The notes below the pieces were generated by a model that searched no databases, was not told where the DNA came from, and saw only the letters and a list, made by a program, of their open reading frames with translations. This document shows positions 3,384 through 41,032 of a stretch of DNA of 64,000 nucleotides, one piece after another. A program made the position numbers and the translations under genes. The DNA is from Erythrobacter sp. QSSC1-22B (GTDB lineage: Bacteria > Pseudomonadota > Alphaproteobacteria > Sphingomonadales > Sphingomonadaceae), in contig NZ_LZRP01000001.1 of NCBI RefSeq assembly GCF_001678665.1, positions 124,001-188,000 of the forward strand. The letters run 5' to 3'. Each line of letters opens with the position of its first letter. The first letter of the stretch is position 1.

Positions 3384-5627
3384 TCATTCATGCGGTTGGG
3401 TGGTGTTCGAACGCGGGCCGTTTCCCGTTGGTCTCGCGGTTGGATCGCGCGCGAAGCGCATCCTCACACAGGTGCCCCCACCTTCGCGGGCCGAGAAACC
3501 CATTTCTCCCCCATGCTCCTCGACGATCTTGTTGACGATGGCCAGCCCCAGCCCGGTGCCCTTGTCCCGCGTGGTGACATACGGCTCGAGAATACGTTCG
3601 CGATCCTTGGGCAGGCCGACGCCATTGTCCTCGACGGTGACGGTCAGCGCGGATTCGTCCGCTTCGACGACGACCTCGATCTTGCCACGATAATCGACGG
3701 GCGCCTGGGCGGCCTGGGCCTCGACCGCCTCGCCGGCGTTCTTGAGCACGTTGATCAGCGCCTGACCGAACTGATGCCGATCACATTGAATGGTGATCGG
3801 CCCGTCGGTTTCGCCCGTCAGACTGTAATCGACCTCGGGATGCCCGACTTCCTGCAAAAACAGCGATTGACGTAACAGGTCGAGCGCGTCCTCGGAGCGG
3901 AACACGGGCTTGGGCAGTCTCGCGAAGGACGAGAATTCGTCGACCATCTTGCGCAAATCGCCCACCTGGCGAATGATGGTGTTGGTCAGATCGTCGAACA
4001 GTTCGCCATCCTGGAGGATCTGCTTGCGATAGCGCCGCTTCAACCGTTCGGTGGCGAGCTGGATCGGGGTGAGCGGGTTCTTGATCTCATGCGCAATACG
4101 TCGCGCGACATCCGACCAGGCGGCCTGCCTCTGATCGAGAAGCTGGCGGGTGATGTCCTCGAAGGTGATCACATGGCCATCCCGCTCGGGACCGATCTTG
4201 ACTGCAAGAGTCAGCAGGTCCGAACCCTTGGAATAGCTGACGATCCCTTTTTCCAGCCCTGCCTCGACCATCACCGCAATCTGCGGCGCAAGATCGTAGA
4301 TGTTGCGGATGGCGCCTTCGCTGTCGCGATTTTCGTCGCCCAGCAGGGCCTGCGCCGGGCCATTCATCAGCATGATGTGCCCATCGCGGTCGATCGACAT
4401 GACACCTGCGCTGACCGATTCGAGCACCGCCTCGATGAAGCTGCGGCGTTCCTCGATCTGGCGATTGGCGGTGACGAGCGCATCGGTCTGGCGCTCGAGC
4501 TGCGCAGTCATCCGGTTAAATGCGCGGTTGAGCAGGCCGATTTCGTCGCCGCCGGTCCGCCCCTCGACACGTAGCGCGAAATTCCCCCCGCCCACTTCGC
4601 GCGCGGCGGCGACGAGATCGGTAAGCGGCTCGACCTGACGATCGGCCAACCGCAGGGCGAACCACACCGCCAACCCGACCAGACCGAGACTGACAAAGAA
4701 CAGCGCCAGATTGAAACGGAGCTGCAAGGCACGGGCGCGCTGGGTAAGCTCGTCATAGGCCTGAGTGATCGAACGCGCGCTTTCCCAGCTCCTGAAGCTG
4801 TCGCCTTCGGAATTGCGCGCGTTGTAGAGATATATGCCGGCGTCGCGATCGATCGGCGCCAGCGCCTCGATCCGTTCTTCCGATCCCTGCACAACCACTG
4901 GCTCGCCCGCCTGCAGCGGTTCGGAGCTGCGTTCGGCGAAAGCCACGGGATCGCTGCCTTCACTCAGGCCGTAAACGACGGCGGTGCGCATGCTTCCGTC
5001 GGGCATCGCCTGAAGGATGGCGCTCTCGTTGACGTCGCGCGGCTGCGCCTGATATTCGTATACCAGCGCAAAATTGGGATCGGTGACAGCGACGCTTCCC
5101 AGGATGCTGCGCATATCCATCGCCATCGAAACCGTCTCTTGGGACAGGTCGAGCTGGTTCTCCTCGTAATAGTTCTGCGCGAGGCTGTTGGTGTTCTCCA
5201 TGAGCCCGCGCGAACTGTCCGAGAACCAGAAATCCACACCCGACTGGAACAGGAAGGCTGCAAAGCCAGCCACCAGAAGCGTCGGGACTGCTGCTATCAG
5301 CGAGAAGAAAAACACCAGTCGGACATGCAGCCGCGCGGTGCTGCCCGCCGCGCGACGCAATGCCATGCGCCGCCCCAGCAATACGAGTAGCGCCATTGCG
5401 GGCACCAGCGTCCCGATCAGCAGGCCGGCAACCTGCTGGGAAGGCAGCAGTTGGCCATCGGGTGGTGCATTGGTGAAGGCGAGGTAACCGCTCACGACCA
5501 TTGCCACTACCGCCAGCGCCGAGGCGATCTCGAGCCACGCGAACAGGTTCGAGCGACGCGATGTCACCACGAAGCGGCGCAACCAACGCGGGGTCTGTCG
5601 AAGAGGAGAGTGCGCCTGGGTGGCCAT
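3384..5627 (-). CDS. ntrY: Nitrogen regulation sensor histidine kinase NtrY
   Basis: A 747-residue membrane kinase. Hydrophobic segments occur at about residues 30-52, 66-86 and 106-128, followed by a periplasmic sensor region to about 300, another membrane segment at about 305-327, a HAMP linker, a PAS domain at about 395-490, a HisKA domain with H513 in HEIKNPLTP, and a HATPase domain with DNGVGLP and GTGLGLAIV. It phosphorylates NtrX. The gene sits between ntrC, 61 bases upstream, and ntrX, 9 bases downstream. The C-terminal 15 or so residues are a Pro/Asn-rich tail. Confidence 0.95.
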   Translation of the reverse strand: MATQAHSPLRQTPRWLRRFVVTSRRSNLFAWLEIASALAVVAMVVSGYLAFTNAPPDGQLLPSQQVAGLLIGTLVPAMALLVLLGRRMALRRAAGSTARLHVRLVFFFSLIAAVPTLLVAGFAAFLFQSGVDFWFSDSSRGLMENTNSLAQNYYEENQLDLSQETVSMAMDMRSILGSVAVTDPNFALVYEYQAQPRDVNESAILQAMPDGSMRTAVVYGLSEGSDPVAFAERSSEPLQAGEPVVVQGSEERIEALAPIDRDAGIYLYNARNSEGDSFRSWESARSITQAYDELTQRARALQLRFNLALFFVSLGLVGLAVWFALRLADRQVEPLTDLVAAAREVGGGNFALRVEGRTGGDEIGLLNRAFNRMTAQLERQTDALVTANRQIEERRSFIEAVLESVSAGVMSIDRDGHIMLMNGPAQALLGDENRDSEGAIRNIYDLAPQIAVMVEAGLEKGIVSYSKGSDLLTLAVKIGPERDGHVITFEDITRQLLDQRQAAWSDVARRIAHEIKNPLTPIQLATERLKRRYRKQILQDGELFDDLTNTIIRQVGDLRKMVDEFSSFARLPKPVFRSEDALDLLRQSLFLQEVGHPEVDYSLTGETDGPITIQCDRHQFGQALINVLKNAGEAVEAQAAQAPVDYRGKIEVVVEADESALTVTVEDNGVGLPKDRERILEPYVTTRDKGTGLGLAIVNKIVEEHGGEMGFSAREGGGTCVRMRFARDPTARPTGNGPRSNTTQPHE

Positions 5628-5688
5628 CGTTGCCGGGTTACAACGACACTGTGGCCATTATGCAAGCTATTAATCGGCAGTCCGCGCG

Positions 5689-7098
5689 TCAGCGGCGACG
5701 GGTGTAGCGCTCCGGCTCGATTCCCAGCTCGCCGATTTTCTTTCGCAAGGTGTTGCGGTTGATCCCCAACAGCTGTGCCGCCCGAACCTGATTGCCTTCG
5801 GTTTCGCGCAGCGCGTGCTCGATCAGCGGCTTCTCGAACTCGGTGAGCGCCGCGTGATACAGCGTTCCCGAGGGTACCGACCGCCCCGCCAGCCATGAAG
5901 CCAGCGCGCTCGTGAAGCCACCATCCTGAGCGGCTTCGCTCTCGATGCGGACCCCCGGCAGGTTTTCGTCCACGATCGCGCGGTCGATCGACTCATTGCG
6001 CGCGATCAGCGCCAGCCGAAAAACGACATTGCGCAATTCGCGGACATTGCCCGGCCATTCGCGCTCGGCCAACGCCGCGACGGCTTCCTCGGCGATCGAC
6101 CGCCGCGGCAACCCCTCGCGTTCGGCCAGCGCCAGGAAGTGCCGCGCCAGCGCGGCAATGTCCTCACGCCGCTCGCGCAGTGGCGGCATGTGGATCGGAA
6201 CCACGTTCAGACGATAATAGAGATCCTCGCGAAAGGTGCCCTCGGCAATCATGGGGGCAAGATCACGATTGGTGGCGGCAATGATCCGCACATCGACCGC
6301 AATGTCGTGCCGACCGCCGACCCGGCGGATACGCCCCGACTGCAATGCGCGCAGCAGACGCGTCTGCGCTTGCGCGGGCATGTCGCCGATTTCGTCGAGG
6401 AACAGCGTCCCCCCGTTGGCCTGTTCGAACTTGCCGATTGCCTGGTTTATCGCACCGGTGAATGCGCCTTTTTCGTGACCGAACAGCTCGCTTTCGATCA
6501 GATCGTGCGGGATCGCCGCCGCATTGACGGCAACGAATGGTCCGGTCTTGCGCGCGCCGAGTTCGTGAACCGCTTCGGCGACCAGTTCCTTGCCAGTGCC
6601 CGACTCGCCGGTAACCAGCACGGTAAGATCGTTGCGCAACACCCGGCTGATCATCCGGTAGACCCCCTGCATGGCCTGGCTGCGACCGATGAAGGGCATG
6701 TCCTCGGCCGGATCGGACTGCGGACCCACCGACGGGCGCCGAGCGGCCGCCTGTTCGACCGCCTTGGTCAATTCGTCGAGGTCGAAGGGTTTGGGAAAAT
6801 ATTCGAACGCCCGGCTGTCGCTCGAGCGGACCGCAGTATCGAGCGTGTTCTGCGCGCTCAAAACGATGACGGGCATTTCCGGTGCGGCGGAATGGACCGC
6901 GGCGATGCTCGCGAGCCCATCGCCATCCTCCAGGATGACGTCGGTGAGCATGACGTCGAAGCGGCGCTCCGCCAGCAGCTCGTCGCGCCGGTCTATGCGG
7001 CTGCATAGGGTGACGTCATAACCCTCGTCGCCGAGCGCCTCCGCAATGACGGCGGCGATGGCGGGATCGTCCTCGACGATCAACACGCTCCGGGTCAC
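5689..7098 (-). CDS. ntrC: Nitrogen regulator NtrC
   Basis: A 469-residue sigma-54-dependent activator: receiver domain with phospho-acceptor D53, AAA+ domain with Walker A GESGTGKE, an intact GAFTGA loop in GHEKGAFTGA, Walker B LFLDEIGDMP, and a C-terminal Fis-type DNA-binding helix-turn-helix (LLGINRNTLRKKIGEL). It activates nitrogen assimilation genes once phosphorylated by NtrB. It starts with GTG overlapping the ntrB stop (GTGA), so the two are translationally coupled. Unlike the neighbouring NtrX it keeps everything needed for sigma-54 activation. Confidence 0.95.
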   Translation of the reverse strand: MTRSVLIVEDDPAIAAVIAEALGDEGYDVTLCSRIDRRDELLAERRFDVMLTDVILEDGDGLASIAAVHSAAPEMPVIVLSAQNTLDTAVRSSDSRAFEYFPKPFDLDELTKAVEQAAARRPSVGPQSDPAEDMPFIGRSQAMQGVYRMISRVLRNDLTVLVTGESGTGKELVAEAVHELGARKTGPFVAVNAAAIPHDLIESELFGHEKGAFTGAINQAIGKFEQANGGTLFLDEIGDMPAQAQTRLLRALQSGRIRRVGGRHDIAVDVRIIAATNRDLAPMIAEGTFREDLYYRLNVVPIHMPPLRERREDIAALARHFLALAEREGLPRRSIAEEAVAALAEREWPGNVRELRNVVFRLALIARNESIDRAIVDENLPGVRIESEAAQDGGFTSALASWLAGRSVPSGTLYHAALTEFEKPLIEHALRETEGNQVRAAQLLGINRNTLRKKIGELGIEPERYTRRR

Positions 7099-31817: not shown

Positions 31818-31866
31818 AATGGTGCGCCCGACAGGATTCGAACCTGTGGCCCCCAGATTAGGAATC
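31818..31866. repeat. attL: orphan 3' half of tRNA-Arg(CCT)
   Basis: These 49 bases are identical to 40954-41002. They carry the CCA end, acceptor 3' strand, T arm, variable region and part of the anticodon arm of the tRNA on the minus strand; beyond 31866 the match stops and no 5' half follows, so this copy is not a functional tRNA. Confidence 0.93.
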
Positions 31867-31929
31867 CTGTGAGACGCTTACCATAGGGCCTCACTAGCCT
31901 TTAGATGACGGATTTCTGCGGTTCATGCT

Positions 31930-31995
31930 TTTCATGCATTGCATGAAACCTCACGCGATGTTACCTATCGCGTTACCTGCTGCCGATAAGGTAAC
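31930..31995. promoter_or_regulatory. Left-end recombination arm sites
   Basis: Two direct GTTACCT heptamers (31960-31966, 31972-31978) are followed by an inverted AGGTAAC (31989-31995). The same pattern occurs at the right end (40901-40936), inside the element and next to the other att core. This is what integrase arm-type or excisionase sites look like. Just left, TTTCATGC-ATT-GCATGAAA (31930-31948) is a perfect 8-bp-arm inverted repeat of unknown role. Confidence 0.6.
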
Positions 31996-32064
31996 AGGTG
32001 AGCCGAGCGGGATGGTCTAGATCCCAGCCCGGCTCTGACCACAACGATCCAGGGAGAGATCATC

Positions 32065-32352
32065 ATGGCTACCGATACCTTACAATCGACCACAGCCCCC
32101 GCAAAGCCCGCTCGAGAGGCTTACGAGCTTGCCACTGACTTACAGACGTGTTGCTCGCGCGTTCGCAGCCTAGCTGAGTGCATAGGCGCAACCGCTGACG
32201 ATGCCTTCAGCGAGACGCAGGAACGCGCCCGAGGGCGCAAGATCCAGAACATCATAAACCTTTCGGATCTGATTGAGCGTGAAATTGCCGAAGTGACTAA
32301 GATGGGCGAGCGGATCGAGGTCATCTCGCAAGCAGAAAGAGATGATCGATGA
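32065..32352 (+). CDS. Hypothetical small protein, element left end
   Basis: A 95-residue helical, charged protein with a Thr/Ala/Pro-rich first 18 residues and no recognised domain. GGGAGAG lies 9 bases before the ATG. Its stop overlaps the next start (ATGA), so the two are coupled. It is the first gene inside attL and could be an accessory recombination protein, but nothing in the sequence proves that. Confidence 0.7.
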   Translation: MATDTLQSTTAPAKPAREAYELATDLQTCCSRVRSLAECIGATADDAFSETQERARGRKIQNIINLSDLIEREIAEVTKMGERIEVISQAERDDR

Positions 32353-32576
32353 TCGCCCTTTGTACCGGTCGCCCTGTCATTAAACAGGACGGAGATCGCA
32401 TCATCGCCACAATCCCAAGCGGGAACGGCGAGGTCGAGATTGCGCTCAACTTTGGGCAAGCTACGTGCCTCGGGGAAGGAATGGTACGGCTTGCTAGGGA
32501 AGCGGTCAGCAATCAGAACATCGCCGCCTCTGCTAAAATTCTGCCCTTGAAGCGCAAAACAAAGCGCGGGGCCTGA
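32349..32576 (+). CDS. Hypothetical small protein upstream of integrase
   Basis: A 75-residue protein, probably of mixed alpha/beta structure (RIIATIPSGNGEVEIALNF), with a basic tail KRKTKRGA. I do not recognise it. It overlaps the previous gene by four bases and ends two bases before the integrase start. Confidence 0.65.
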   Translation: MIALCTGRPVIKQDGDRIIATIPSGNGEVEIALNFGQATCLGEGMVRLAREAVSNQNIAASAKILPLKRKTKRGA

Positions 32577-32578
32577 CC

Positions 32579-33742
32579 ATGCTAACCGACGCGAAGCTGC
32601 GAGCAATCAAGCCACCCGAAACCGGGCAGCAAGAGCATCCCGACCATAAGGTGACTGGGCTCCGCCTTCGCGTCGGCCATGGCGGCACAATGACTTGGAT
32701 TGTGCGCCGCAGGGTTGGCGCAAAGGTGCTGAACAAGAAACTAGACACCTATCCGCCCATGGGCTTAGCGGACGCCAGAAAGGCCGCTGAGAGGCTTTTG
32801 GAGGCTTTGGCTAGGGATGGCAGCACAGAGGCGCTCGACCGCACGTTCTACACCGTAGCAGAGCACTGGATCGAAAAGGTCGCCAAGCCGAAAAACGACA
32901 GTTGGAAGGACGTTCACCGCAAGCTGGAATTGCATGTCTATCCGACATGGCGGGATCGAAAGATTGTCGAGATTAAGCGGGCTGACGTTCGCGAATTGCT
33001 CGAGGGCATCGAAGGCGTGGTGCTGCCCAACCGGGTGTTGTCGGCAATCAAAACCATTTTCCGCTTTGCCATGTCGCGCGATTGGCTGGAGGCTTCCCCC
33101 GTCGAGGGCATCGCAAAGCCGAACGCTGAGCCCGTCCGTGATCGGGTGTTGGATATGTATGAAATCAAGCGGATATGGGAGGCCTGCGCCCTCGCCGGTT
33201 TCCCCTTCGGGTCGTTTGTTCGGACACTTGTGCTGACTGGCCAGCGGCGCACTGAGGTTGCCGGTATGCGGTGGGCAGACTTGGACCTTAAAGCCGGGAC
33301 ATGGATCATTCCCGCAAGCGACACAAAAGCCGAGCGGACGCACCTAGTGCCGCTCAGCAAGCCCGCTGTCGAAATGTTGGAAGGCCTGCCCGAACTGGGC
33401 GAATTCGTTTTCAGCAATGATGGCGAGACGCATATTAGCGGCTATTCGAAGGGCAAGCTGCGCCTAGACAAGTTCATGGCTGGCAACGGCCCTGCCCCCG
33501 CCCCTTGGCGGCTGCACGACCTGCGCCGCTCGACCGCCACGCATCTAGTCCGTCTTGGCATCACCGAGACAGTGGTGGGCCGCGTCCTAAATCATGCCGC
33601 GATAGGCGTCACCGCAAGGGTTTATGCTTTGCATTCCTACGCACCGGAAAAACGCCACGCGCTCGACCTGTGGGCAGCCGAGGTCGATCGGGCGGTGAAT
33701 GGCGAGCGCGGCGGCAATGTCGTCCGGATGGGGAAAGCCTGA
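32579..33742 (+). CDS. int: Tyrosine recombinase integrase of the element
   Basis: A 387-residue P4/DUF4102-type phage integrase. The N-terminal arm-binding domain starts MLTDAKLRAIKPP, with GLRLRVGHGG. The catalytic domain has the first arginine in TGQRRTEVAGMRW, the HxxR box in LHDLRRSTATHL, a histidine in LNHAAIG and the tyrosine nucleophile in TARVYALH. It would recombine the att core inside tRNA-Arg. It reads inward from attL, so it lies at the end far from the intact tRNA. Confidence 0.95.
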   Translation: MLTDAKLRAIKPPETGQQEHPDHKVTGLRLRVGHGGTMTWIVRRRVGAKVLNKKLDTYPPMGLADARKAAERLLEALARDGSTEALDRTFYTVAEHWIEKVAKPKNDSWKDVHRKLELHVYPTWRDRKIVEIKRADVRELLEGIEGVVLPNRVLSAIKTIFRFAMSRDWLEASPVEGIAKPNAEPVRDRVLDMYEIKRIWEACALAGFPFGSFVRTLVLTGQRRTEVAGMRWADLDLKAGTWIIPASDTKAERTHLVPLSKPAVEMLEGLPELGEFVFSNDGETHISGYSKGKLRLDKFMAGNGPAPAPWRLHDLRRSTATHLVRLGITETVVGRVLNHAAIGVTARVYALHSYAPEKRHALDLWAAEVDRAVNGERGGNVVRMGKA

Positions 33743-34299
33743 TGCCCGGTGGCGCAATGCACCAGCCCTCGGACTGGGCAATCGCGGAGCTTCGGCGGGT
33801 AGCCCCAGACTTTCCCGTCGCTGCATTTTGCTCTGCGGTGGGCATGTATCCAATCGACCAAAGGCATAAAGCGCAAACCCCTAAGGGCGTCCGCGACGAT
33901 CTAGGCGAAATCTCTGATGCGGCGCGGGCGCTTTATAAGCTGCTCGCGAATGGCAGCGATGAACTGCTCGCATACCTTGGCGGGGAATGTGTCGCCTTTG
34001 GCGATCCGATGCTGCCAGAGCGGATGAAACCAAGGCTCCTTAGGCTGTCCGGACTAGCGCGCCATGCCGAGGCCGAGGCGGCTAAGGGCGTAGGGGCTGG
34101 CGCACCGCGTAAGGCAATATCGCGCCTGATTGGGCGATTGGAATTCGCCCTAGCGGAAGCCGGGATTGAGCCCGACGCCCGCAACAACGGCCCGCTGGTC
34201 GCCGCCTTTGATGTCGCCTGCCAAGAGCTTAGAATTTCTGTCGCAGACGCCGCCGACACGGTTCAAAAGGCACTTGCCCGCATGCCGGGGAAACAATAG
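33742..34299 (+). CDS. Hypothetical element protein after integrase
   Basis: A 185-residue helical protein starting at an ATG that overlaps the integrase stop (TGATG). The middle has a small basic linker (GAGAPRKAISRLIG). I recognise no domain. A second possible start is the ATG at 33757. Co-translation with integrase suggests an element maintenance role. Confidence 0.7.
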   Translation: MPGGAMHQPSDWAIAELRRVAPDFPVAAFCSAVGMYPIDQRHKAQTPKGVRDDLGEISDAARALYKLLANGSDELLAYLGGECVAFGDPMLPERMKPRLLRLSGLARHAEAEAAKGVGAGAPRKAISRLIGRLEFALAEAGIEPDARNNGPLVAAFDVACQELRISVADAADTVQKALARMPGKQ

Positions 34300-34364
34300 G
34301 CGAAATTCCTGCCTAATCAGTCCGGTCAAGCTTGCAGTAACCCGCGAGAATGCCGTTATTAAAC

Positions 34365-34404
34365 ATGTCACCCGTTCGAATGGTTCGAACCAGTGAGGTG
34401 ACAT
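34365..34404 (+). promoter_or_regulatory. Operator-like region in front of alpA
   Basis: The inverted pair ATGTCACC (34365-34372) and GGTGACAT (34397-34404) flanks a perfect 12-bp palindrome TGGTTCGAACCA (34381-34392); GTTCGAA also occurs twice at 9-base period (34374-34380, 34383-34389). The right arm touches the alpA ATG, so a bound protein would block translation-site access or transcription. The ATGTCAC unit recurs in the predicted origin at 36765-36789. A weak promoter, TTGCAG with TATTAA, lies just upstream at 34333-34362. Confidence 0.5.
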
Positions 34405-34584
34405 ATGGCACAATTCCTAACTCCCAAGGCGGTTTGCGATAAGATCGCGCTGAGCCGCGCCACGCTCGATCGGCTGGTCGCTGCAGACAAGTTTCCCGCT
34501 CCGCTGAAGCTGACCGAACGCCGCCTCGCATTCAATGCGGCGGACGTTGAAAACTGGATGGCTGAAAGGATGGAGGCTGCATAA
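34405..34584 (+). CDS. alpA: AlpA-family transcriptional regulator
   Basis: A 59-residue helix-turn-helix protein (MAQFLTPKAVCDKIALSRAT at the start, ending VENWMAERMEAA) of the AlpA/excisionase family: a winged HTH with SRATLDRLV as recognition region followed by a short strand and a final helix. AlpA activates integrase or satellite genes in P4 and PICI elements. It starts right after the operator-like repeats and its stop overlaps the next ATG (TAATG). Confidence 0.85.
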   Translation: MAQFLTPKAVCDKIALSRATLDRLVAADKFPAPLKLTERRLAFNAADVENWMAERMEAA

Positions 34585-34778
34585 TGCAGAAACGCCGCCC
34601 CCTTGGGGACGGCGCTGTTCTGCTTGGCGGCGAACGCTCCGTTCCTACCGAAAAAACCCCGTCCCTGCAACCTTCGAACGTGTGCGAACTCCGCGCGTTG
34701 CACCTGATCGCTAACCGCCATGTGCGCCCCGAAATGGCGCTAACGCTGGCGGCGCTGGCGTTTGGGGGTGCGCAGTGA
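34584..34778 (+). CDS. Hypothetical small protein after alpA
   Basis: A 64-residue protein overlapping the alpA stop and the next gene's GTG, so it fits the tight coupling of this operon. The C-terminal half is a predicted helix with LIANRHVRPEMALTLAALAF. No family is recognised. Confidence 0.6.
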   Translation: MQKRRPLGDGAVLLGGERSVPTEKTPSLQPSNVCELRALHLIANRHVRPEMALTLAALAFGGAQ

Positions 34779-35023
34779 GCGACCTCCCGACCAGCTCGAC
34801 AATCATCCCTTGGACACGCGTCCCGCTCCGCGCCTTCGTCGTCATCCCCGGCGATGAAATCGGTCGCGACTTCGTTCTGGTCAGACAGGGCGGCTATCCG
34901 ATCGACGGTGGCCTTGAGCCCATGCAGGGACCCCTCGCAACCGTTCTGAGGCACTTGCGAGATGATCCGCGCGGCCTCCCCGTCACGATCCATCCCGAAT
35001 GCAGACGGAGGGCGGCGGCATGA
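34775..35023 (+). CDS. Hypothetical small protein
   Basis: An 82-residue protein starting at GTG (GTGA overlap with the previous stop). It has a beta-rich middle (LRAFVVIPGDEIGRDFVLVR) and a basic, Arg-rich end. No family is recognised. Confidence 0.6.
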   Translation: MSDLPTSSTIIPWTRVPLRAFVVIPGDEIGRDFVLVRQGGYPIDGGLEPMQGPLATVLRHLRDDPRGLPVTIHPECRRRAAA

Positions 35024-35322
35024 ATGCTCAAACCGCGATCAAACCGGACGAAATCACGACCTTTCTTGGCAGCATCCCCGCCGAGGAATTTGAAAAGCGT
35101 TCCAAGCTGCGCAGCCTGCGCAATGCGGCGGCTGCAATGATCGCCAGCACTGAAAGCGACACGGCCCGCGCGTTGGCGTGGTTCGCGACCGAATACGCCA
35201 CCCAGGCGCTCTACAGCCCCGGTGCGACCCAGGCGCTGGACGATCTCAACAAGCTCTGCACCCGCTTTATGCTCACGGCGATCCAAGCCGAACAGATCGA
35301 TCTCGAAAGGTTCGGAGAATGA
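35020..35322 (+). CDS. Hypothetical helical protein upstream of the helicase
   Basis: A 100-residue, largely helical protein starting at the ATG that overlaps the previous stop (ATGA) and ending on the helicase start (ATGA). No domain is recognised. Coupling to the replication gene suggests it acts with it. Confidence 0.65.
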   Translation: MNAQTAIKPDEITTFLGSIPAEEFEKRSKLRSLRNAAAAMIASTESDTARALAWFATEYATQALYSPGATQALDDLNKLCTRFMLTAIQAEQIDLERFGE

Positions 35323-36764
35323 ACGATAGCGCCATGAAGGTCGATGATAGCGAACTAGCCGCGCTCGCTTCGATGGCCGATGATTATAGTCATCCGCAGT
35401 CTGTTAAAGCGGGCGAGCCTGTTTACGTTCGCCCCGGCTCCTTCGCAATCGATGGCAAGACCTCGACCGAGGAATCGCTGGCGAGGGAATGGGCGACGAA
35501 CCACCATGCCGACTGGCGTTTCGACGCTGGCATTCAACGGTGGTTCGAGTGGGATGGATCTCGCTGGAAACAGGATCGGACCCGGCGAGCTCTCCAGCTA
35601 ATCCGTGAACATATTCAGGCTGCAGCCGAGGGCCGGGGCGGCAACACCAAGCCGCAACCGGCGCTCGCGAAGGCATCGGTCGCGCGAGGGGTGGAAACCT
35701 TCTGCCAGATCGATCGCCGCACAGTGGTTGAGCATGATGTTTGGGACCCGGACGCTTTCCAGCTGGGGACGCCGAAGGGAATGGTCGATCTCCGAACCGG
35801 CAAGCGGCTGCAGGCCAGCCGCACGGCAATGATAACCCGCTCGACCTCGATCGCGCCAGCGGGCGGCGAGCCGAAGCGGTTTCTGCAATTCATTCGGGAG
35901 GCCACAAACGGCGACGATACGGTCGCCCATTTTCTACAGCTTGTGCTGGGTTACTGCCTGACCGGCTCGACCCGCGAACATGCCCTGTTCTTTGGCTATG
36001 GCGGGGGCAAAAATGGTAAGTCCGTTCTGCTGAATACGGCGGCACGGATAATGGGCGAATACGCCACGACCGCCGCAATGGACACCTTCACGGCCAGCCG
36101 AGGCGATAAGCATCCAACTGACCTTGCAAGGCTCGACGGGGCGCGGCTGGTGGCTGCATCGGAAACCGAGGAAGGTCGAGCATGGGCGGAATCGCGCATC
36201 AAGCAATTGACCGGCGGCGACCGCATCGCGGCTCGCTTCATGCGGCAAGATTTCTTCGAATTCACGCCGCGCTTTAAGCTGTTCATCGTGGGCAACTTCC
36301 GGCCCCGCTTGCACAATGTGGACGAAGCCACCCGCCGCCGCTTTAACATCATCCCGTTCCTGCACATTCCGCCGAACCCCGATAAGGACCTCGAGGAAAA
36401 GCTCGCGGCTGAGCACCCGCAAATCCTCGCCTGGATGATCGAGGGCGCGCGTCAATGGCATGAGACCGGCCTCACCCGCCCCGAGGCCATCGCGCACGCT
36501 ACCGACCGCTATTTCGAGGATCAGGACCTTCTAGGCCAGTGGATTGCCGAGCGGTGCGAAACCCGCGTGGGCGCGATGGGCAAGGCAACCCCTCTCTTCG
36601 AAAGCTGGCGCGATTTCGTGCGCGAGAATGGCGAGGAGGAAGGAACCCAACGGGCCTTTGCCGAGGTGCTTGAAAAGCGCGGCTTCGAACGCAGCCGCAA
36701 CAACGCACTTGGCCGGTTCTATCGCGGGATCGATCTCTACTCCCGCCGCATCGTGGAGGACTGA
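35319..36764 (+). CDS. D5/P4-type replication helicase (phage/plasmid primase family)
   Basis: A 481-residue protein of the D5_N-helicase family that drives satellite and plasmid replication. After a D5_N region comes a superfamily 3 helicase core with Walker A GGGKNGKS at residues 228-235, an acidic Walker B-like segment in LDGARLVAASETEEG, and the later VGNFRPRLHNVDEATRRR sensor and arginine-finger region. The N-terminal primase domain of full-length P4 alpha-type proteins (about 770 residues) is missing, so priming must come from elsewhere or the protein only loads and unwinds. The predicted origin starts one base after its stop. Confidence 0.9.
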   Translation: MNDSAMKVDDSELAALASMADDYSHPQSVKAGEPVYVRPGSFAIDGKTSTEESLAREWATNHHADWRFDAGIQRWFEWDGSRWKQDRTRRALQLIREHIQAAAEGRGGNTKPQPALAKASVARGVETFCQIDRRTVVEHDVWDPDAFQLGTPKGMVDLRTGKRLQASRTAMITRSTSIAPAGGEPKRFLQFIREATNGDDTVAHFLQLVLGYCLTGSTREHALFFGYGGGKNGKSVLLNTAARIMGEYATTAAMDTFTASRGDKHPTDLARLDGARLVAASETEEGRAWAESRIKQLTGGDRIAARFMRQDFFEFTPRFKLFIVGNFRPRLHNVDEATRRRFNIIPFLHIPPNPDKDLEEKLAAEHPQILAWMIEGARQWHETGLTRPEAIAHATDRYFEDQDLLGQWIAERCETRVGAMGKATPLFESWRDFVRENGEEEGTQRAFAEVLEKRGFERSRNNALGRFYRGIDLYSRRIVED

Positions 36765-36871
36765 CCATGTCGCATGTCACATCATGTCACTGTTTTCCCC
36801 ATTGGTCTCATGCGCGCGCGTATGTGAAGCTGAATAGGCAATCTGCTGACATGAAGCGACATGCGACATGG
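36765..36871. other. Predicted replication origin: iteron-bearing inverted repeat
   Basis: Two 25-base arms (36765-36789 and 36847-36871) match as an inverted repeat at 23 of 25 positions. Each arm contains three CATGTC hexamers (or GACATG on the other arm), as CATGTCG, CATGTCA or similar. They flank a 57-base centre. Directly downstream of a rep/helicase gene, iterons on both sides of a centre are the layout of known SaPI origins. The arms begin at the helicase stop. Function is inferred. Confidence 0.6.
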
Positions 36872-36960
36872 CAGGCCCTACCTCATCTCTGTGTTGCGAG
36901 CCTAAGACACCACCGCCACTCTAGCGAAGAAAACGCAACCCCGAACTCGTCTAGCGTCGC

Positions 36961-36992
36961 CTCGCACGCGCGGGCGCGCAAGCGCGCGCGAG
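36961..36992. repeat. CGCG-rich inverted repeat
   Basis: CTCGCACGCGC (36961-36971) and GCGCGCGCGAG (36982-36992) pair with one mismatch around a 10-base loop. The 36872-37086 stretch around it has no convincing gene. Confidence 0.5.
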
Positions 36993-37086
36993 GGAGCCGG
37001 GGGCCTGTTGCCTCTGAACAGCGCAAGCCGGGGACCGCTGTTGGTCAAAATTTCACGCAAAACCAGATTAAGATTTGGGGGGTGAG

Positions 37087-37323
37087 ATGACCCGGCTTGG
37101 CTACGTTCGCGGCGATGGCGACTGTGCATTCTGCGGCGAACCCTTCACGTTCGAAGCCACCATCGACGCTCTAAGGACTTCACCCAAGCTCTACTGTGCC
37201 GAGCGATGCAAGCGCCAAGCTGCATATCGCCGCCGCGTGGAACGCGCTGCGCAAACGCCGATCACGATTGAGAGCCCTCGACCTTGCGACAGCGATGGCT
37301 GGCCGATCGAGAGCCTATCATGA
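37087..37323 (+). CDS. Small zinc-ribbon-like protein
   Basis: A 78-residue protein with four cysteines spaced as a zinc site: C13-x2-C16 (CAFC) and C37-x3-C41 (CAERC), followed by a basic helix (KRQAAYRRRVERAA). The ATG at 37087 follows GGGGGGTGAG and is better than the TTG at 37075. It resembles short zinc-finger proteins of phages. It is a likely nucleic-acid binder. Confidence 0.7.
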   Translation: MTRLGYVRGDGDCAFCGEPFTFEATIDALRTSPKLYCAERCKRQAAYRRRVERAAQTPITIESPRPCDSDGWPIESLS

Positions 37324-37541
37324 CCCCGCCCCCTATCCATCCCTGCAGCGCCGCGTCCGGGGACCGCTTGGATACCTCGCCAATCATAAACCGTAACATT
37401 GGGAGCAATCGGAATGACATCACCGAGCATGGCCTGGGGGCGTTTCCAACCCTGTCGAGCGGGATCGGGGGACCGCTGGGTAACCGTGACACTATCGCTA
37501 ACTCAAGTTTTCTCGCGCGCGCGCGAGGGGAAAGGATTTAA
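37320..37541 (+). CDS. Hypothetical small protein
   Basis: A 73-residue frame whose ATG overlaps the previous stop (ATGA) and which ends just before the next ATG. The sequence is Pro/Asn/Gly-rich with no recognised domain. The coupling favours a real gene, but the composition is weak evidence. Confidence 0.4.
   Translation: MTPPPIHPCSAASGDRLDTSPIINRNIGSNRNDITEHGLGAFPTLSSGIGGPLGNRDTIANSSFLARARGERI
37512..37527. repeat. Perfect 16-bp CGCG palindrome
   Basis: CTCGCGCGCGCGCGAG is its own reverse complement. It echoes the imperfect palindrome at 36961-36992, and a shorter GCGCGCGCG tract lies inside the predicted origin centre. Confidence 0.6.
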
Positions 37542-37542
37542 C

Positions 37543-37785
37543 ATGGCCGATGAAAGCATGCTGACACCCGCAGCGGCGAAGCTGCTCGCCGAGTTTCGCC
37601 GCATCACGATCCTGGCAGAACAGGATGGCGCAGACATGGGCGACAGGTTCCACGCCGTTGCCAGAATATTCGGCGATCACCTCTCGCTAATCGCTGAACC
37701 AAAGGATGCCGCAGCGTGGATGAAACGCGAGGCGCGACGGATCGAGGCTCTTGCCAGAGCGCAGCATTCGGAGACCGAACAGTGA
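37543..37785 (+). CDS. Hypothetical helical protein
   Basis: An 80-residue, all-helical acidic protein (LTPAAAKLLAEFRRITILAE), starting at an ATG with AAAGGA upstream and overlapping the next gene's GTG. No family recognised. Confidence 0.6.
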   Translation: MADESMLTPAAAKLLAEFRRITILAEQDGADMGDRFHAVARIFGDHLSLIAEPKDAAAWMKREARRIEALARAQHSETEQ

Positions 37786-38003
37786 GCCAAGAACGCGAGC
37801 TAGTGGATACCAACCGCCACGCGCACGAGCATTTCGATCACCTGCTGATCTCAGGGACAACCGAGCACATGGCCGTGGTCGCGTTCACCGTCGCGGCAAT
37901 CGAGCGCGCGGTGCGGGCCGGGGGCAAGGAAAAGACCTCCCATTGGCTCAGAACCTTGGCTGATCGGGTAGATGCGGGGCAGTTAACCGACCCTCCACCT
38001 TGA
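37782..38003 (+). CDS. Hypothetical helical protein
   Basis: A 73-residue protein starting at GTG (GTGA overlap). The helical core HMAVVAFTVAAIERAVRAGG is not recognised. It ends the helper-gene run before the capsid genes. Confidence 0.55.
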   Translation: MSQERELVDTNRHAHEHFDHLLISGTTEHMAVVAFTVAAIERAVRAGGKEKTSHWLRTLADRVDAGQLTDPPP

Positions 38004-38028
38004 CTTTCCAATCGAAATGTGGTCTAGC
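38000..38028 (+). promoter_or_regulatory. Weak candidate promoter for the capsid genes
   Basis: TTGACT (38000-38005) and TCTAGC (38023-38028) are spaced by 17 bases in the 135-base gap upstream of the prohead protease. The -35 is good and the -10 poor. A late gene promoter may instead depend on a helper phage or AlpA. Confidence 0.3.
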
Positions 38029-38138
38029 GGGTTTGTCTAGCGCGCCGTTGCTGCGCAGGCACGGATCCAGTCCCGCCCCGTAGGGCGCACTGACCGGCCA
38101 CAATCCAACATTCACGGATTACAGGCGGAGTGCGTCTA

Positions 38139-38765
38139 ATGGAAATTGCGGGATTCCCGCTCGAGATAAAGAATCTGTCCGAAGGTGGCGAAATCGTCGG
38201 CTTCGCTGCAGCATTCGGCAACCTCGATCACGGCGGCGATATCATTGAAAAGGGGGCCTTCGCGGAGACCCTCGCACAGCACAAGGCAGCGGGAACCGCC
38301 CCTGCGATGCTGCTGCACCACGACATGTCCAGGCCGATTGGCCGCTGGACCGAACTATCCGAAACCGAAGATGGCCTGCTGGCCAAGGGCAAGATCACCC
38401 GCGACTGCACCGATGGTGCGGAAGCCTATGCGCTTGCCCGCGATGGGGCGCTGGGCGGGCTTTCGGTCGGCTATGGCGTGAAGGTAGCTGGGCGGCGCGG
38501 CGATGCTCGCTTGCTGCAGCAATTGGAACTGCACGAGGCAAGCCTTGTGGCGGTCCCGATGAATGCGAAGGCGCGGATCGTCACTGTTAAGTCGATCGGC
38601 AACATTCGCGAATTGGAGGATCTGCTGCGCAGCGGATTGTCCGGACGCAAGGCGCGGGTGGCTGCAAACGCTGCATGGGCCGCAATCAACTCAACCGAAC
38701 CGAACAACGACGACGAGCTGGCAGCGATCCTGTCCGCCTCGATCAACCGACTCAGCACGATTTAA
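38139..38765 (+). CDS. HK97-family prohead protease
   Basis: A 208-residue U35-type maturation protease. The catalytic histidine is in MLLHHDMSRPIGRW and the catalytic serine in GGLSVGY, with the start IKNLSEGGEIVGFAAAF typical of the family. It cleaves the delta domain of the capsid protein during head maturation. A GTG three codons upstream is possible, but GGAG nine bases before the ATG favours 38139. The capsid gene follows after 11 bases. Confidence 0.9.
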   Translation: MEIAGFPLEIKNLSEGGEIVGFAAAFGNLDHGGDIIEKGAFAETLAQHKAAGTAPAMLLHHDMSRPIGRWTELSETEDGLLAKGKITRDCTDGAEAYALARDGALGGLSVGYGVKVAGRRGDARLLQQLELHEASLVAVPMNAKARIVTVKSIGNIRELEDLLRSGLSGRKARVAANAAWAAINSTEPNNDDELAAILSASINRLSTI

Positions 38766-38776
38766 CGGAGATTATC

Positions 38777-39865
38777 ATGACCGATATTGCAGAACTTTTG
38801 AAAGAACACACCGCCGGGGTGGAAACCAAGCTGACGGACCTGTCCAAGACCACGGAAGGCTACAGCGATTGGATGTCCGAGATCGAGCGCAAGCTTAATC
38901 GCAGCGGCACCGGCAACCCTTTTGGCCAGTCGCTCAGCGTGGGCGAACAGGTCGCGCGGGCCGATGAGATCAAGGAAGTCCTAAACTCCAGTTCGAACGG
39001 CGCGGCCCGCCGGATCGAGGTCAAAGCTATTACCAACGCGGTGGATAGCGGCGGCGGCTTGCACAGTCCGAACCGCGACATGGAAGTTATGCTTCCCCGT
39101 CGCAGGCTGACTATCCGCGACTTGCTGCGCACCGTCCCGGTGACCTCGCAGGATATCGAATATCCGGAACAGACCACGCGCGCCGATCAGGCGGCTCCGG
39201 TGGCGGAATCTGCCCTGAAGCCTGAAAGTGCGATGGCCTTCACAATGAAAACTGTGAAGACCGTCACGCTGGCGCACTGGGTAACGGCCTCGCGGCAGGT
39301 TCTTGCTGATGCCCCCCAACTTCGCGCCCTGATCGACAATGAGCTTCGCTATGGTCTGCAGATGGAGGAAGAGGGGCAAATCCTCTACGGCGATGGCACC
39401 GGGCAGAACCTTCCCGGCATTATCCCGCAGGCGACCGCTTTTGCGGACCCTCTGACCCTTGCTGCTCCGAACCAAATCGACACGATTGGCTCTGCCCTGC
39501 TGCAGGCCGACCTTACCGATGTGCCGGCGGATGGCGTTATCATTCACCCGACCGATTGGCAGCGCATGCGCATGCTGAAGGACGCGGATGGCAATTACAT
39601 TCTTGGCGCGCCGGGTGCGGATGTCCCCCCAGTCCTGTTTGGGCGGCGCGTGGTGGCCACTCAGGCCATGACCGCAGGTTCGTTCCTTGTTGGTCCCTTC
39701 GATGGCGGAGCGACGCTCTACGACCGCATGGCGGCAACTATCATGGTGAGCACAGAGCATGCGGATTATTTCACCCGCAATCTTTGTGCGATCTTGGGGG
39801 AAACCAGGGTCGGCTTGGGCGTGAAACGTCCCGCTTCGTTCATCACCGGCACCCTGCCAGTTTAA
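38777..39865 (+). CDS. HK97-fold major capsid protein
   Basis: A 362-residue phage major capsid protein. The first 95 or so residues are a charged coiled-coil scaffold (delta domain) ending before NAVDSGGGLHS. Then come the HK97 fold marks: RRRLTIRDLLRTVPVTSQ, the E-loop, LAHWVTASRQVLADAP, a GDGTGQNLPGI segment and the C-terminal FTRNLCAILGETRVGL. Preceded by its own protease, it could form a head; no portal or terminase lies next to it. Confidence 0.92.
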   Translation: MTDIAELLKEHTAGVETKLTDLSKTTEGYSDWMSEIERKLNRSGTGNPFGQSLSVGEQVARADEIKEVLNSSSNGAARRIEVKAITNAVDSGGGLHSPNRDMEVMLPRRRLTIRDLLRTVPVTSQDIEYPEQTTRADQAAPVAESALKPESAMAFTMKTVKTVTLAHWVTASRQVLADAPQLRALIDNELRYGLQMEEEGQILYGDGTGQNLPGIIPQATAFADPLTLAAPNQIDTIGSALLQADLTDVPADGVIIHPTDWQRMRMLKDADGNYILGAPGADVPPVLFGRRVVATQAMTAGSFLVGPFDGGATLYDRMAATIMVSTEHADYFTRNLCAILGETRVGLGVKRPASFITGTLPV

Positions 39866-39872
39866 TTCGGAT

Positions 39873-39899
39873 GGGAGCGGCTGCAACATGGCCGCTCCC
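39873..39899 (+). terminator. Hairpin after the capsid gene
   Basis: GGGAGCGGC (39873-39881) pairs perfectly with GCCGCTCCC (39891-39899) eight bases past the capsid stop. No T tract follows, so it is a weak terminator or transcript stabiliser. Confidence 0.5.
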
Positions 39900-40013
39900 G
39901 CCATTCCTCGCATGGGGTGAACTATCGTGCGATCTGGCATGATGCTGTCACAATTGCTGACTAGGTCTCGCCAAGTGAAACCTGCGACCCGGTTCTCACT
40001 CCACGCACCTTGA

Positions 40014-40040
40014 CCCTCGCTTCAGCGGGGGTTTCTTTTC
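40014..40040 (+). terminator. Rho-independent terminator of the capsid operon
   Basis: CCCTCGC (40014-40020) pairs with GCGGGGG (40025-40031, one T-G pair) around loop TTCA, followed by TTTCTTTTC. It lies 150 bases past the capsid stop. Confidence 0.75.
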
Positions 40041-40165
40041 GGCGGGCAATGTCGATCTGGGAACTGGCGGCATCGGGCGGGCATTGTCTTCGAGTAAGGG
40101 CGCGGGCATTGACCCCCTAACCCCGATATGTTTGCGTCCTTGCACCTACCCAACCGGCTTTCGCC

Positions 40166-40194
40166 TTGCACGAATCGTTCGCTCTCTGTTCTAA
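40166..40194 (+). promoter_or_regulatory. Candidate promoter overlapped by an SOS (LexA) box
   Basis: TTGCAC (40166-40171) and TTCTAA (40189-40194) are 17 bases apart. GTTC-N7-GTTC at 40177-40191 is the alphaproteobacterial LexA box and covers the spacer and -10. By chance about two such boxes are expected per 64 kb over both strands, so position is the main argument. Confidence 0.5.
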
Positions 40195-40202
40195 GCACAC
40201 CC

Positions 40203-40367
40203 ATGCACTACCTGATCGAACAGGCGGACGGTTCGCCGCTCAAAAATGAACAGGATGAAATCCACGTGTTCGCTTCGCTGGCGGACGCAAAGACGTGGCT
40301 ATTGCCGGGGGAGCGGGTGCGTCCGCTGAAAAAGGAAACTGCCCTAAAGCCCGATCAGGCCCTTTAG
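40203..40367 (+). CDS. 54-residue protein under a predicted SOS promoter
   Basis: A small mixed-charge protein that begins MHYLIEQADGSPLKNEQDEI. I recognise no family. It lies about 10 bases past the SOS-box promoter candidate, so its transcript would be nearly leaderless, and it has no strong ribosome site. Its end overlaps the end of a minus-strand gene by 24 bases. An SOS-induced satellite gene could be an inducer or antirepressor; that is a guess. Confidence 0.5.
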   Translation: MHYLIEQADGSPLKNEQDEIHVFASLADAKTWLLPGERVRPLKKETALKPDQAL

Positions 40368-40670
40368 ACGTTCAGCGGCTAAGGTAATCCCGCCCAAAAT
40401 TAAGACGCCAGTCCCCAACGCAGTTACAATAAAGCCTTTGCTTGGCAGGTGGGCAACTCGCTCAACTAGAGTGCTCAAATCCACCCGGACATCGCCAAGG
40501 GTGTCATTCGTCTTGTCGAGCCTTGTTTCCAAGCGATTAACACGAGCTTCCATGCCGTCAAAAGTGCCACCATCGCCGCCTTTTTTCAAGCCTTTGTTCT
40601 CGGCATTCAGCTGTTCGCTTTCCTCTTTCAGCCTTCGAACTATCGCAATTTCATTGTCTTTCTCGCTCAT
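40344..40670 (-). CDS. Coiled-coil membrane protein (XhlA-like layout)
   Basis: A 108-residue protein: charged N-terminal helix, a heptad coiled coil at about residues 40-75 (MEARVNRLETRLDKTNDTLG), LPSK at 75-78, one membrane helix at about 79-99 and a short tail. This layout matches phage XhlA-type small membrane proteins, which associate with holins, though the match is by architecture only. Its ATG overlaps the stop of the upstream gene (ATGA). Confidence 0.65.
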   Translation of the reverse strand: MSEKDNEIAIVRRLKEESEQLNAENKGLKKGGDGGTFDGMEARVNRLETRLDKTNDTLGDVRVDLSTLVERVAHLPSKGFIVTALGTGVLILGGITLAAERLKGLIGL

Positions 40671-40882
40671 TCTCCGCCGCCTAGATCGTTAATCAGCGCA
40701 CTTAATTCCGCATCTGCGTCAATTGCTTCACCAAGCTTTTGAGTGGCAGCTGCAGGATCCTGGCTTAGCAGCGCGCTCATGGTTTTATATAAGCGGACGT
40801 TCACTCTCCGTTGGAGTATCACCAATTGGATAAGGTCGCCTCGAGTGGCGCTTTCTGACCACTTTGGCCAAACATCTGTCAT
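40667..40882 (-). CDS. Small helical protein paired with the coiled-coil membrane protein
   Basis: A 71-residue helical acidic protein (LIQLVILQRRVNVRLYKTMS). The start at ATG 40882 is uncertain: a GTG at 40891 in the same frame is also possible, as GAGGGG lies two bases before GTG and eleven before ATG. The pair reads toward the capsid operon from next to attR, a usual cargo position. Confidence 0.6.
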   Translation of the reverse strand: MTDVWPKWSESATRGDLIQLVILQRRVNVRLYKTMSALLSQDPAAATQKLGEAIDADAELSALINDLGGGE

Positions 40883-40900
40883 CGGCCACACCGCCCCTCA

Positions 40901-40936
40901 GTTACCTATACGTTACCTCGACAATGGTCTGGTAAC
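40901..40936. promoter_or_regulatory. Right-end recombination arm sites
   Basis: Direct GTTACCT at 40901-40907 and 40912-40918, then inverted GGTAAC at 40931-40936. The order and spacing mirror the left end (31960-31995), which argues for binding of the same recombination proteins at both ends. Confidence 0.6.
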
Positions 40937-40953
40937 ATCTAACCCATTGATTT

Positions 40954-41002
40954 AATGGTGCGCCCGACAGGATTCGAACCTGTGGCCCCCAGATTAGGAA
41001 TC
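40954..41002. repeat. attR: core shared with attL
   Basis: The 49 bases identical to 31818-31866. Here they continue into the 5' half of the tRNA, so the element's insertion keeps the tRNA complete. Confidence 0.93.
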
Positions 41003-41032
41003 TGATGCTCTATCCTACTGAGCTACGGGCGC
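40956..41032 (-). tRNA. tRNA-Arg, anticodon CCT
   Basis: The minus strand folds as a 77-nt cloverleaf: acceptor GCGCCCG with CGGGCGC, D arm with GTAGCTCAGTAGGATAGAGC, anticodon arm with loop TTCCTAA (anticodon CCT), T arm with GGTTCGAATCC and an encoded CCA end. It is the attachment site of the element. Confidence 0.95.

Follow-up and report, generated by a model that had tools for sequence, protein, structure and literature searches.

How could an integrated element that encodes a capsid shell, yet no recognizable portal, packaging motor, or tail, be packaged and transferred? The question is raised by an element integrated in a tRNA-Arg(CCT) gene of Erythrobacter sp. QSSC1-22B (assembly GCF_001678665.1), at positions 31818 to 41002 of a 64,000-nt window (contig NZ_LZRP01000001.1, positions 124,001 to 188,000), to whose numbering coordinates refer unless a locus is named. 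A first-pass annotation, made from the sequence alone, described it as an alphaproteobacterial satellite in which the head-shell module alone has been kept, or else as a decayed larger satellite. Comparison with relatives supports the first description. We find that the element is one of a family of at least 22 and argue that it is probably a satellite resembling the phage-inducible chromosomal islands (PICIs), one that would make its own small shell and borrow the large terminase subunit (TerL), portal, and tail of a helper phage, as far as genes alone can tell.

The element has two defined ends. Repeat comparison identified a 49-nt direct repeat, 100% identical between its copies at 31818 to 31866 (left attachment site, attL) and 40954 to 41002 (right attachment site, attR), with a spacing of 9,136 nt. 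The intact tRNA-Arg(CCT) gene that served as integration target lies at the right end (40956 to 41032, minus strand). The tRNA-derived repeat and the 9,136-bp element given in the first-pass annotation are confirmed. For an empty-site comparison, 20 loci were fetched, the element's own and 19 from congeneric genomes. tRNA-Arg(CCT) occupies the same 3.5-kb locus in all 19 congeners; in 12 this locus also contains a homolog of the major facilitator superfamily (MFS) gene that flanks the element on the left, and these are empty sites. In the other seven, no MFS homolog was found within the fetched flank. The DUF1178 gene on the right flank is present in 39 of 41 genomes of the genus. Because the MFS and DUF1178 genes are neighbors in the 12 congeners with empty sites, the element is an insertion between them, and its two-sided att boundaries and the empty sites oppose the idea that it is a fragment of a prophage continuing elsewhere.

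Within these boundaries, genes for an integrase, an AlpA-type regulator, and a helicase follow one another in the order known from Gram-negative PICIs. The tyrosine integrase (387 aa; 32579 to 33742, plus strand) matches PF00589 (E 2e-19), the regulator (59 aa; 34405 to 34584, plus) matches PF05930 (E 1e-8), and the D5-type helicase (481 aa; 35319 to 36764, plus) matches D5_N (4e-16) and DUF5906 (5e-11). Farther right, the gene g14 (73 aa; 37782 to 38003, plus) is followed by a prohead (head maturation) protease (38130 to 38765, plus; Peptidase_S78, 1e-21) and an HK97-type major capsid protein (MCP; 362 aa; 38777 to 39865, plus; Phage_capsid PF05065, 1e-50). These matches bear out the integrase, AlpA, D5/P4-type helicase, protease, and capsid calls of the first-pass annotation. 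Its statement that portal, terminase, and tail genes are missing also holds, since Pfam and PHROGs recognized none of the portal, TerL, connector, or tail genes of an HK97-like prophage in the element.

The same layout recurs elsewhere. We searched the MCP against 397 genomes of the same family, its own included, at E<=1e-20, and found relatives in 34 of them. Besides the window there were 35 such places, of which 34 were fetched (a second place in G162 was left out; G-numbers denote genomes and L-numbers loci of this analysis) and annotated by tblastn and then by iterated hidden Markov models (HMMs) seeded from phages. Neither portal nor TerL was found within 8 kb in the eight closest relatives or in two more distant ones; the remaining relatives have both or, in three cases, portal only. 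Scans of GTDB contigs and IMG/VR brought the number of shell-only elements to at least 18, the window's included, from Sphingomonas, Allopontixanthobacter, Tsuneonella, Qipengyuania, Polymorphobacter, Paracoccus, Palleronia, Tianweitania, and Paraburkholderia, as well as one alphaproteobacterial metagenome bin and one viral contig with no assigned host. A search of the 397 genomes with g14 alone gave 15 matches, 11 to known elements and four to new ones, each of which has an MCP and no portal or TerL match. The family thus comprises at least 22 elements, 20 of the 22 alphaproteobacterial.

These counts derive from 168 loci, sorted into 118 full (TerL plus portal, with copies of one prophage kept), 32 shell-only, 11 partial, and seven without an MCP match. 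From the 32 we dropped five that were the same places as others (L075, L076, L078, L080, and L097), eight with an end close upstream of the MCP gene and with connector or tail genes (L094, L151, L158, L162, L167, L171, L178, and L183), L116 (connectors), and L115 from Curtobacterium (weak MCP match, no clear repeat). The 17 retained make 18 with the window and 22 with the four from the g14 search. L115, whose capsid match is accompanied by an integrase-profile match and by no portal match, is possibly an actinobacterial counterpart.

Paired direct repeats of 16 to 55 bp, one copy inside a tRNA gene, bound 18 of the 22 elements; no clear boundaries were found for L039, L074, L124, and L247. The targets have nine tRNA specificities (Arg, Asn, Lys, Glu, Val, Ser, Thr, Gln, and Met), and L246 (5549 to 15454 of its locus) lies, like the window element, in a tRNA-Arg(CCT) gene, in another genus. 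The 18 bounded elements measure 9,136 to 11,309 bp (mean 10,294, standard deviation 625), the weakest repeats being those of L034 (16 bp), L245 (17 bp), and L041 (19 bp). Portal and TerL were found in none of the 22 elements with phage-derived HMMs. Pfam likewise gave neither in 113 proteins of 10 elements, in 139 proteins of 11 further elements (among the 25 of 49 families listed), or in 30 unassigned proteins of at least 200 aa from those 11 and L039 (25 families).

The MCP is present in 22 of 22 elements, as the selection criterion for 18 and as a later finding in the other four, and further head and tail genes vary around it. A protease was recognized in 11 of the 22; L037 has only a 62-aa piece related to it. 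The small terminase subunit (TerS) is clear in L040, L244, L245, and L247 and weaker in L036, where it matched a custom TerS profile only, with no Pfam family or named PHROG. Six elements (L035, L036, L038, L077, L099, and L124) have a tape measure gene, which adjoins the MCP gene or lies up to two genes further downstream. Between the two genes, L077 carries tail-chaperone-type and gp10-like genes, and a 476-aa gene of L036 has a weak tail match. Separately, the pooled proteins of ten elements gave matches to type IV restriction, Drt-type reverse transcriptase, and SIR2 defense families. L039 is a 9,242-bp contig of Sphingomonas sp. Y57, which at 5397 to 5861, in a DUF6950 gene, has stretches of up to 28 identical bases in common with prophage L070 of the same genome.

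The hallmark of the family is g14, a three-helix protein of roughly 80 residues found in 21 of the 22 elements (not in L099); that of the window is predicted to form a three-helix bundle (mean predicted local distance difference test score 92.6). Run over the 168 loci, the g14 profile matched 21, every one shell-only (five of them duplicate entries for a place already counted), and not one of the 118 full HK97-like loci. The g14 alignment contains no conserved segment. Leave-one-out tests recovered 15 of 17 seeds at E<=7e-4, the weak ones being L072 (0.017) and L073 (0.048). In the five TerS-bearing elements, g14 follows or overlaps TerS, where phages have TerL. Fold searches with the g14 model against viral and PDB libraries returned nothing at E<=0.001, and tblastn with the window's g14 found no match in 50,697 phage records. 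The g14 profile did reach E values down to 0.0002 against PDB sequences, with the helical repeat protein BurrH and designed helical proteins on top, which we took to reflect helix composition. A class-wide search of 385 genomes returned the window's genome and two others (L242 and L243), both judged false because no phage profile other than g14 matches their surroundings.

The capsid proteins of the family form a lineage of their own. We built a careful tree from 69 MCPs, 17 of satellites and 52 of phages or prophages, leaving out the long branches L033 and L099, and a quick tree that includes them; L244 to L247 are in neither tree, and the two trees use 53 (quick) and 52 (careful) of the 111 MCPs from full loci. 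One clade (100/99), apart from the phage and prophage MCPs, unites 15 of the 17 satellite MCPs, including that of the window, and a weakly supported branch (70/77) has all 17 on the same side. The satellite label requires one change in the careful tree, as against 15.3 for shuffled labels, and three in the quick tree. The MCPs of L034 and L035, the one pair tested, have dN 0.15 and dS 0.97, indicating purifying selection.

These observations bear on the possibility that the window element is a prophage or a capsid-forming satellite that has lost its portal, terminase, and tail genes and become immobile. In HK97-like phages, TerL and portal lie directly upstream of protease and MCP, so that one deletion could suffice, and L037 retains only a short piece related to the protease. 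Against this, 22 elements repeat the layout, 18 of which are bounded by paired repeats at tRNAs that cover nine specificities, and it is because of this recurrence that the decayed-satellite option of the first-pass annotation is left unsupported. Further, a conserved g14 stands in place of TerL and portal, the MCPs make up a separate and diversified clade in which the tested pair is under purifying selection, and the MCP stays constant while the protease, tape measure, and TerS genes around it vary. We therefore consider decay very unlikely.

A second property of the lineage is its scaffold domain, measured as the residues before the HK97 cleavage column. Its median length is 95 residues (81–122) in the 22 satellites and 133 (95–188) in 111 phages and prophages; with 107 distinct phage and prophage MCPs, the contrast has a Mann–Whitney p of 7e-9, which is not corrected for kinship. 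The internal scaffold domain of the window MCP is about 84 residues long, compared with the phage median of 133. Volume scaling from HK97 gives 11.1 kb for a shell with triangulation number T=3 and 17.2 kb for T=4.

A capsid protein with a shortened scaffold need not build a shell alone. Ccm of the staphylococcal island SaPIbov5 is described as a lone capsid homolog that occupies pentamers (PMC8569155, PMC5052747) and was shown to redirect shell size, giving small shells, while being 44 residues shorter than the helper's protein (PMC5052747). The MCPs studied here might likewise assemble together with the helper's capsid protein, perhaps forming the pentamers, and so shrink and steal helper shells, as Ccm is reported to do (PMC8569155, PMC5052747). 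The 11 elements of 22 without a recognized protease resemble SaPIbov5 in this respect, and the MCPs are closer to phage proteins than Ccm is to that of its helper: the MCP of the window is 38 to 45% identical to the listed phage MCPs and that of L246 is 43% identical to the MCP of a resident prophage, set beside a reported 24% for Ccm and its helper (PMC8569155). However, 11 of the 22 elements, the window's included, have their own maturation protease, and the match to the capsid profile covers the window MCP almost from end to end. The MCPs also represent a single old lineage found in several orders, which speaks for their not depending on the capsid of any particular helper. On balance we hold a mosaic shell to be unlikely.

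We favor as probable the interpretation that the element is a PICI-like satellite with a small shell of its own. The element would be switched on through AlpA, excise with its own integrase, and replicate with its own helicase. During growth of a tailed HK97-like helper phage in the same cell, it would supply its own capsid protein and maturation protease, and the short scaffold domain would lead to a smaller shell (T=3 to 4) with room for about 10 kb. Portal, TerL, head–tail connectors, and tail would come from the helper, and DNA would be chosen via a cos-type signal on the satellite. g14 would likely act as the adapter that turns helper packaging or shell assembly to the satellite.

Several observations weigh against this interpretation. 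Because a protease was recognized in only half of the family, not every element needs to make a complete shell itself. In 11 of the 22 satellites (L039, L044, L045, L072, L074, L077, L124, and L244 to L247) the scaffold, at 101 to 122 residues, is inside the phage range, and because the satellites form one clade, the contrast in scaffold length is in effect one evolutionary change; an independent-pairs test found one pair only. g14 evolves fast (dN 0.66 and dS 1.29 for the L034/L035 pair). Finally, the phage cos profile described below finds nothing in the window element, and in its own genome, a draft of 49 contigs, no HK97-like prophage was found as a possible helper, the only PF04860 portal being that of a second, satellite-like element (L071, below).

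Sister elements do carry cos-type sites. Comparison of the noncoding stretches of the elements with all loci identified 69 bp of L036 in common with phages, which have HNH on one side of the match and TerS on the other; in Mesorhizobium phage vB_MseS-P1 (L056), HNH spans 2082 to 2417, the match 2458 to 2530, and TerS begins at 2531. The interval between HNH and TerS is the usual place of cos. A cos profile made from 32 phage and prophage copies was run on 442,852 bases of satellite loci and flanks. It matched L036 (2e-15), L072 (8e-14), and L077 (3e-8) strongly, and L073 (three places, ~0.002), L246 and L040 (both 0.011), and L124 (0.05) more weakly. All nine matches fall within elements and follow their orientation; those after them (E 0.34 and above) do not all do so, and the best of ten shuffles reached 0.56. 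In L072 and L077 the site lies 64 and 68 nt, respectively, after the MCP stop codon.

In one case a candidate helper resides in the same genome. L246 and prophage L270, both from G036, have a 110-bp region in common (71%, E 8e-9), which in L270 lies between an HNH-like gene (E 7e-4, short of Pfam's cut-off) and TerS. L270 has TerL, portal, a ClpP-type protease, MCP, connectors, and tail genes, and its MCP is the resident homolog, 43% identical to that of L246, mentioned above. On sequence grounds, the two form the best candidate satellite–helper pair found. More generally, 8 of the 14 genomes holding sister satellites have portals; among 11 fetched portal loci, two (L269 and L270) have a TerL-profile match, and most of the others look like gene transfer agents.

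The same sites bear on whether the capsid protein is a virion shell at all. It could instead form a compartment, or serve in defense by titrating an invader's portal or capsid; satellites do interfere with their helpers, and Ccm alone is reported to block its phage (PMC5052747). Sister elements, however, have cos-type sites, TerS genes, and integrases and keep within tight size limits, all of which points to packaging and transfer, and we regard a nonvirion role as extremely unlikely.

For the window element itself, in which no TerS was found, a candidate packaging signal comes from comparison with a second element of the same genome. L071, about 11 kb long at tRNA-Asn (contig C1, ~559 to 571 kb; 14-bp repeat), encodes an integrase, AlpA, and DUF5906, followed by TerL, MCP, protease, and portal in that order, with no recognized tail gene; it appears satellite-like and similar to the capsid-forming PICIs (cf-PICIs). 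It holds the only PF04860 portal of the genome, and its PF05065 capsid protein and that of the window element are the only two there. A noncoding stretch of the window element (39920 to 40039), 54 nt after the MCP stop codon, is 93% identical over 121 columns to a stretch 3′ of the L071 portal gene. Since cos occupies the corresponding position in L072 and L077, we propose with moderate confidence that this stretch is a packaging signal (cos or pac) of the window element; alternatively, it is a shared 3′ control region. In the 397 family genomes it has four short matches besides these two copies, with one more in a separate scan, and none in viral contigs. The short matches adjoin chromosomal-looking genes, to which the phage and window proteins tested gave no match; one of the short matches, 20 identical bases, comes from G003 in L254. 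Against phages there are two weak matches (E 0.04), in the 3′ part only. As a side observation, L269 (G036) has TerL, protease, portal, and an integrase match and is conserved with L071 upstream of TerL, so it possibly belongs to the same cf-PICI-like group.

The window element might thus be a satellite of a satellite, packaged by the terminase and portal of L071. In favor of this are the shared stretch itself, which elsewhere has short matches only, its distance from the MCP stop codon (54 nt, compared with 64 and 68 nt for cos in L072 and L077), the related alpA, g6, and g8 genes of the two elements, and the fact that L071 alone provides a PF04860 portal. Yet the shared stretch has a terminator-like sequence at its end and may serve as a 3′ control region, the likeness would also be explained, without common packaging, if two elements in one cell had exchanged DNA, and the conservation upstream of TerL in L071 and L269 may mark the packaging region instead. 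We judge packaging by L071 to be decidedly unlikely. A broader version is unlikely as well: the family would be a distinct and ancient satellite class that provides only the parts setting virion size, namely the shell protein and, in 6 of the 22, a tape measure protein, together with g14 as a dedicated three-helix adapter, and these would be plugged into a helper's portal, motor, and tail, with the window element moved by the terminase and portal of L071 through the shared signal, so that the two satellites would make up one head-and-packaging module.

The remaining genes of the window element are small and mostly coupled, as the first-pass annotation had noted. On the plus strand, g1 (95 aa; 32065 to 32352) matched no family, g2 (75 aa; 32349 to 32576) has a relative in satellite L041, and g4 (~186 aa; 33739 to 34299), which overlaps the integrase gene, is 51% identical to a gene of L034. 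Downstream of alpA, g6 (64 aa; 34584 to 34778, plus) and g8 (99 aa; 35023 to 35322, plus) have relatives in L071 (51% identity over 37 aa and 65% identity, respectively), and g7 (82 aa; 34775 to 35023, plus) has one in L041. The helicase aligns to the C-terminal part of phage primase–helicase families, and no primase domain was found in the protein by Pfam or PHROGs. Directly 3′ of its gene, an inverted repeat of 25 nt (36765 to 36871; 92% complementary, 57 nt between the arms) is a possible replication origin. It is followed by g11 (78 aa; 37087 to 37323, plus), with weak PHROG matches only, and g13 (80 aa; 37543 to 37785, plus), which has a relative in L034. The right end contains a small ORF (54 aa; 40203 to 40367, plus) and two cargo genes on the minus strand, r2 (108 aa; 40344 to 40670; phrog_6136, a family without an assigned function) and r1 (up to 74 aa; 40667 to 40891). 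No Rfam family other than that of the tRNA reached its gathering score, and the element DNA (31867 to 39900) has no near match among 72,556 plasmids.

There are precedents for several of these features, namely SaPIbov5 Ccm, the cf-PICIs, and mycobacterial candidates. The cf-PICIs, like the window element, have their own MCP and protease, but they are described as bringing all head and packaging functions, namely MCP, protease, portal, connectors, TerS, TerL, and HNH (PMC10690885), whereas neither portal nor TerL was found in any of the 22 elements. Because its own portal, connectors, TerS, and TerL were not found, we do not file the window element as a cf-PICI. Some cf-PICIs are reported to have putative tape measure (tmp) genes (PMC12987554). 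The likeness to SaPIbov5, as described, extends to an HK97-fold capsid protein, a shortened scaffold domain, the lack of an own head and motor set, and cos packaging; SaPIbov5 differs in that no protease is identified in the available accounts and that Ccm cannot replace the helper's capsid protein (PMC8569155, PMC5052747). Here, by comparison with the description of Ccm only, 11 of 22 elements have a protease and 21 of 22 have g14 beside the MCP.

Mycobacterial candidate PICIs, phiRv1 and phiRv2 included, likewise combine an integrase with an MCP, and three of the four that are drawn integrate at tRNA genes; they are actinobacterial, some have terminase and scaffold genes, and their description, with which we compared them, mentions neither a g14-like gene nor a lack of portal and TerL throughout the family (PMC10654092). 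EcCICFT073 and PmCI172 are Gram-negative PICIs with a capsid-protein homolog, as here, but are gammaproteobacterial, and the description with which we compared them contains no protease–MCP–g14 module (PMC6092414). The PICI-like elements (PLEs) of Vibrio are reported to swap the helper's tape measure protein for their own (PMC12987554), recalling the tape measure gene downstream of the MCP in 6 of our 22 elements; PLE virions, however, use the helper's capsid protein, and the window element has no tape measure gene. Phage satellite P4 carries the genes sid, psu, and delta. Pfam gave no match to these in the window proteins scanned or in the 113 proteins of 10 elements, although no search was aimed at P4 genes. 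An alphaproteobacterial family of this layout was not found in the literature, the coverage of which was incomplete, so that this is not proof of absence.

As a one-gene search key, g14 has already found four elements that the capsid search missed. The cf-PICIs are described as bringing a whole head and motor, and other satellites as reshaping the helper's shell; a stable family with the shell but neither portal nor motor lies between the two. It would offer a natural system for studying how portal and terminase cooperate with a shell of foreign origin, and whether the length of the scaffold determines capsid size.

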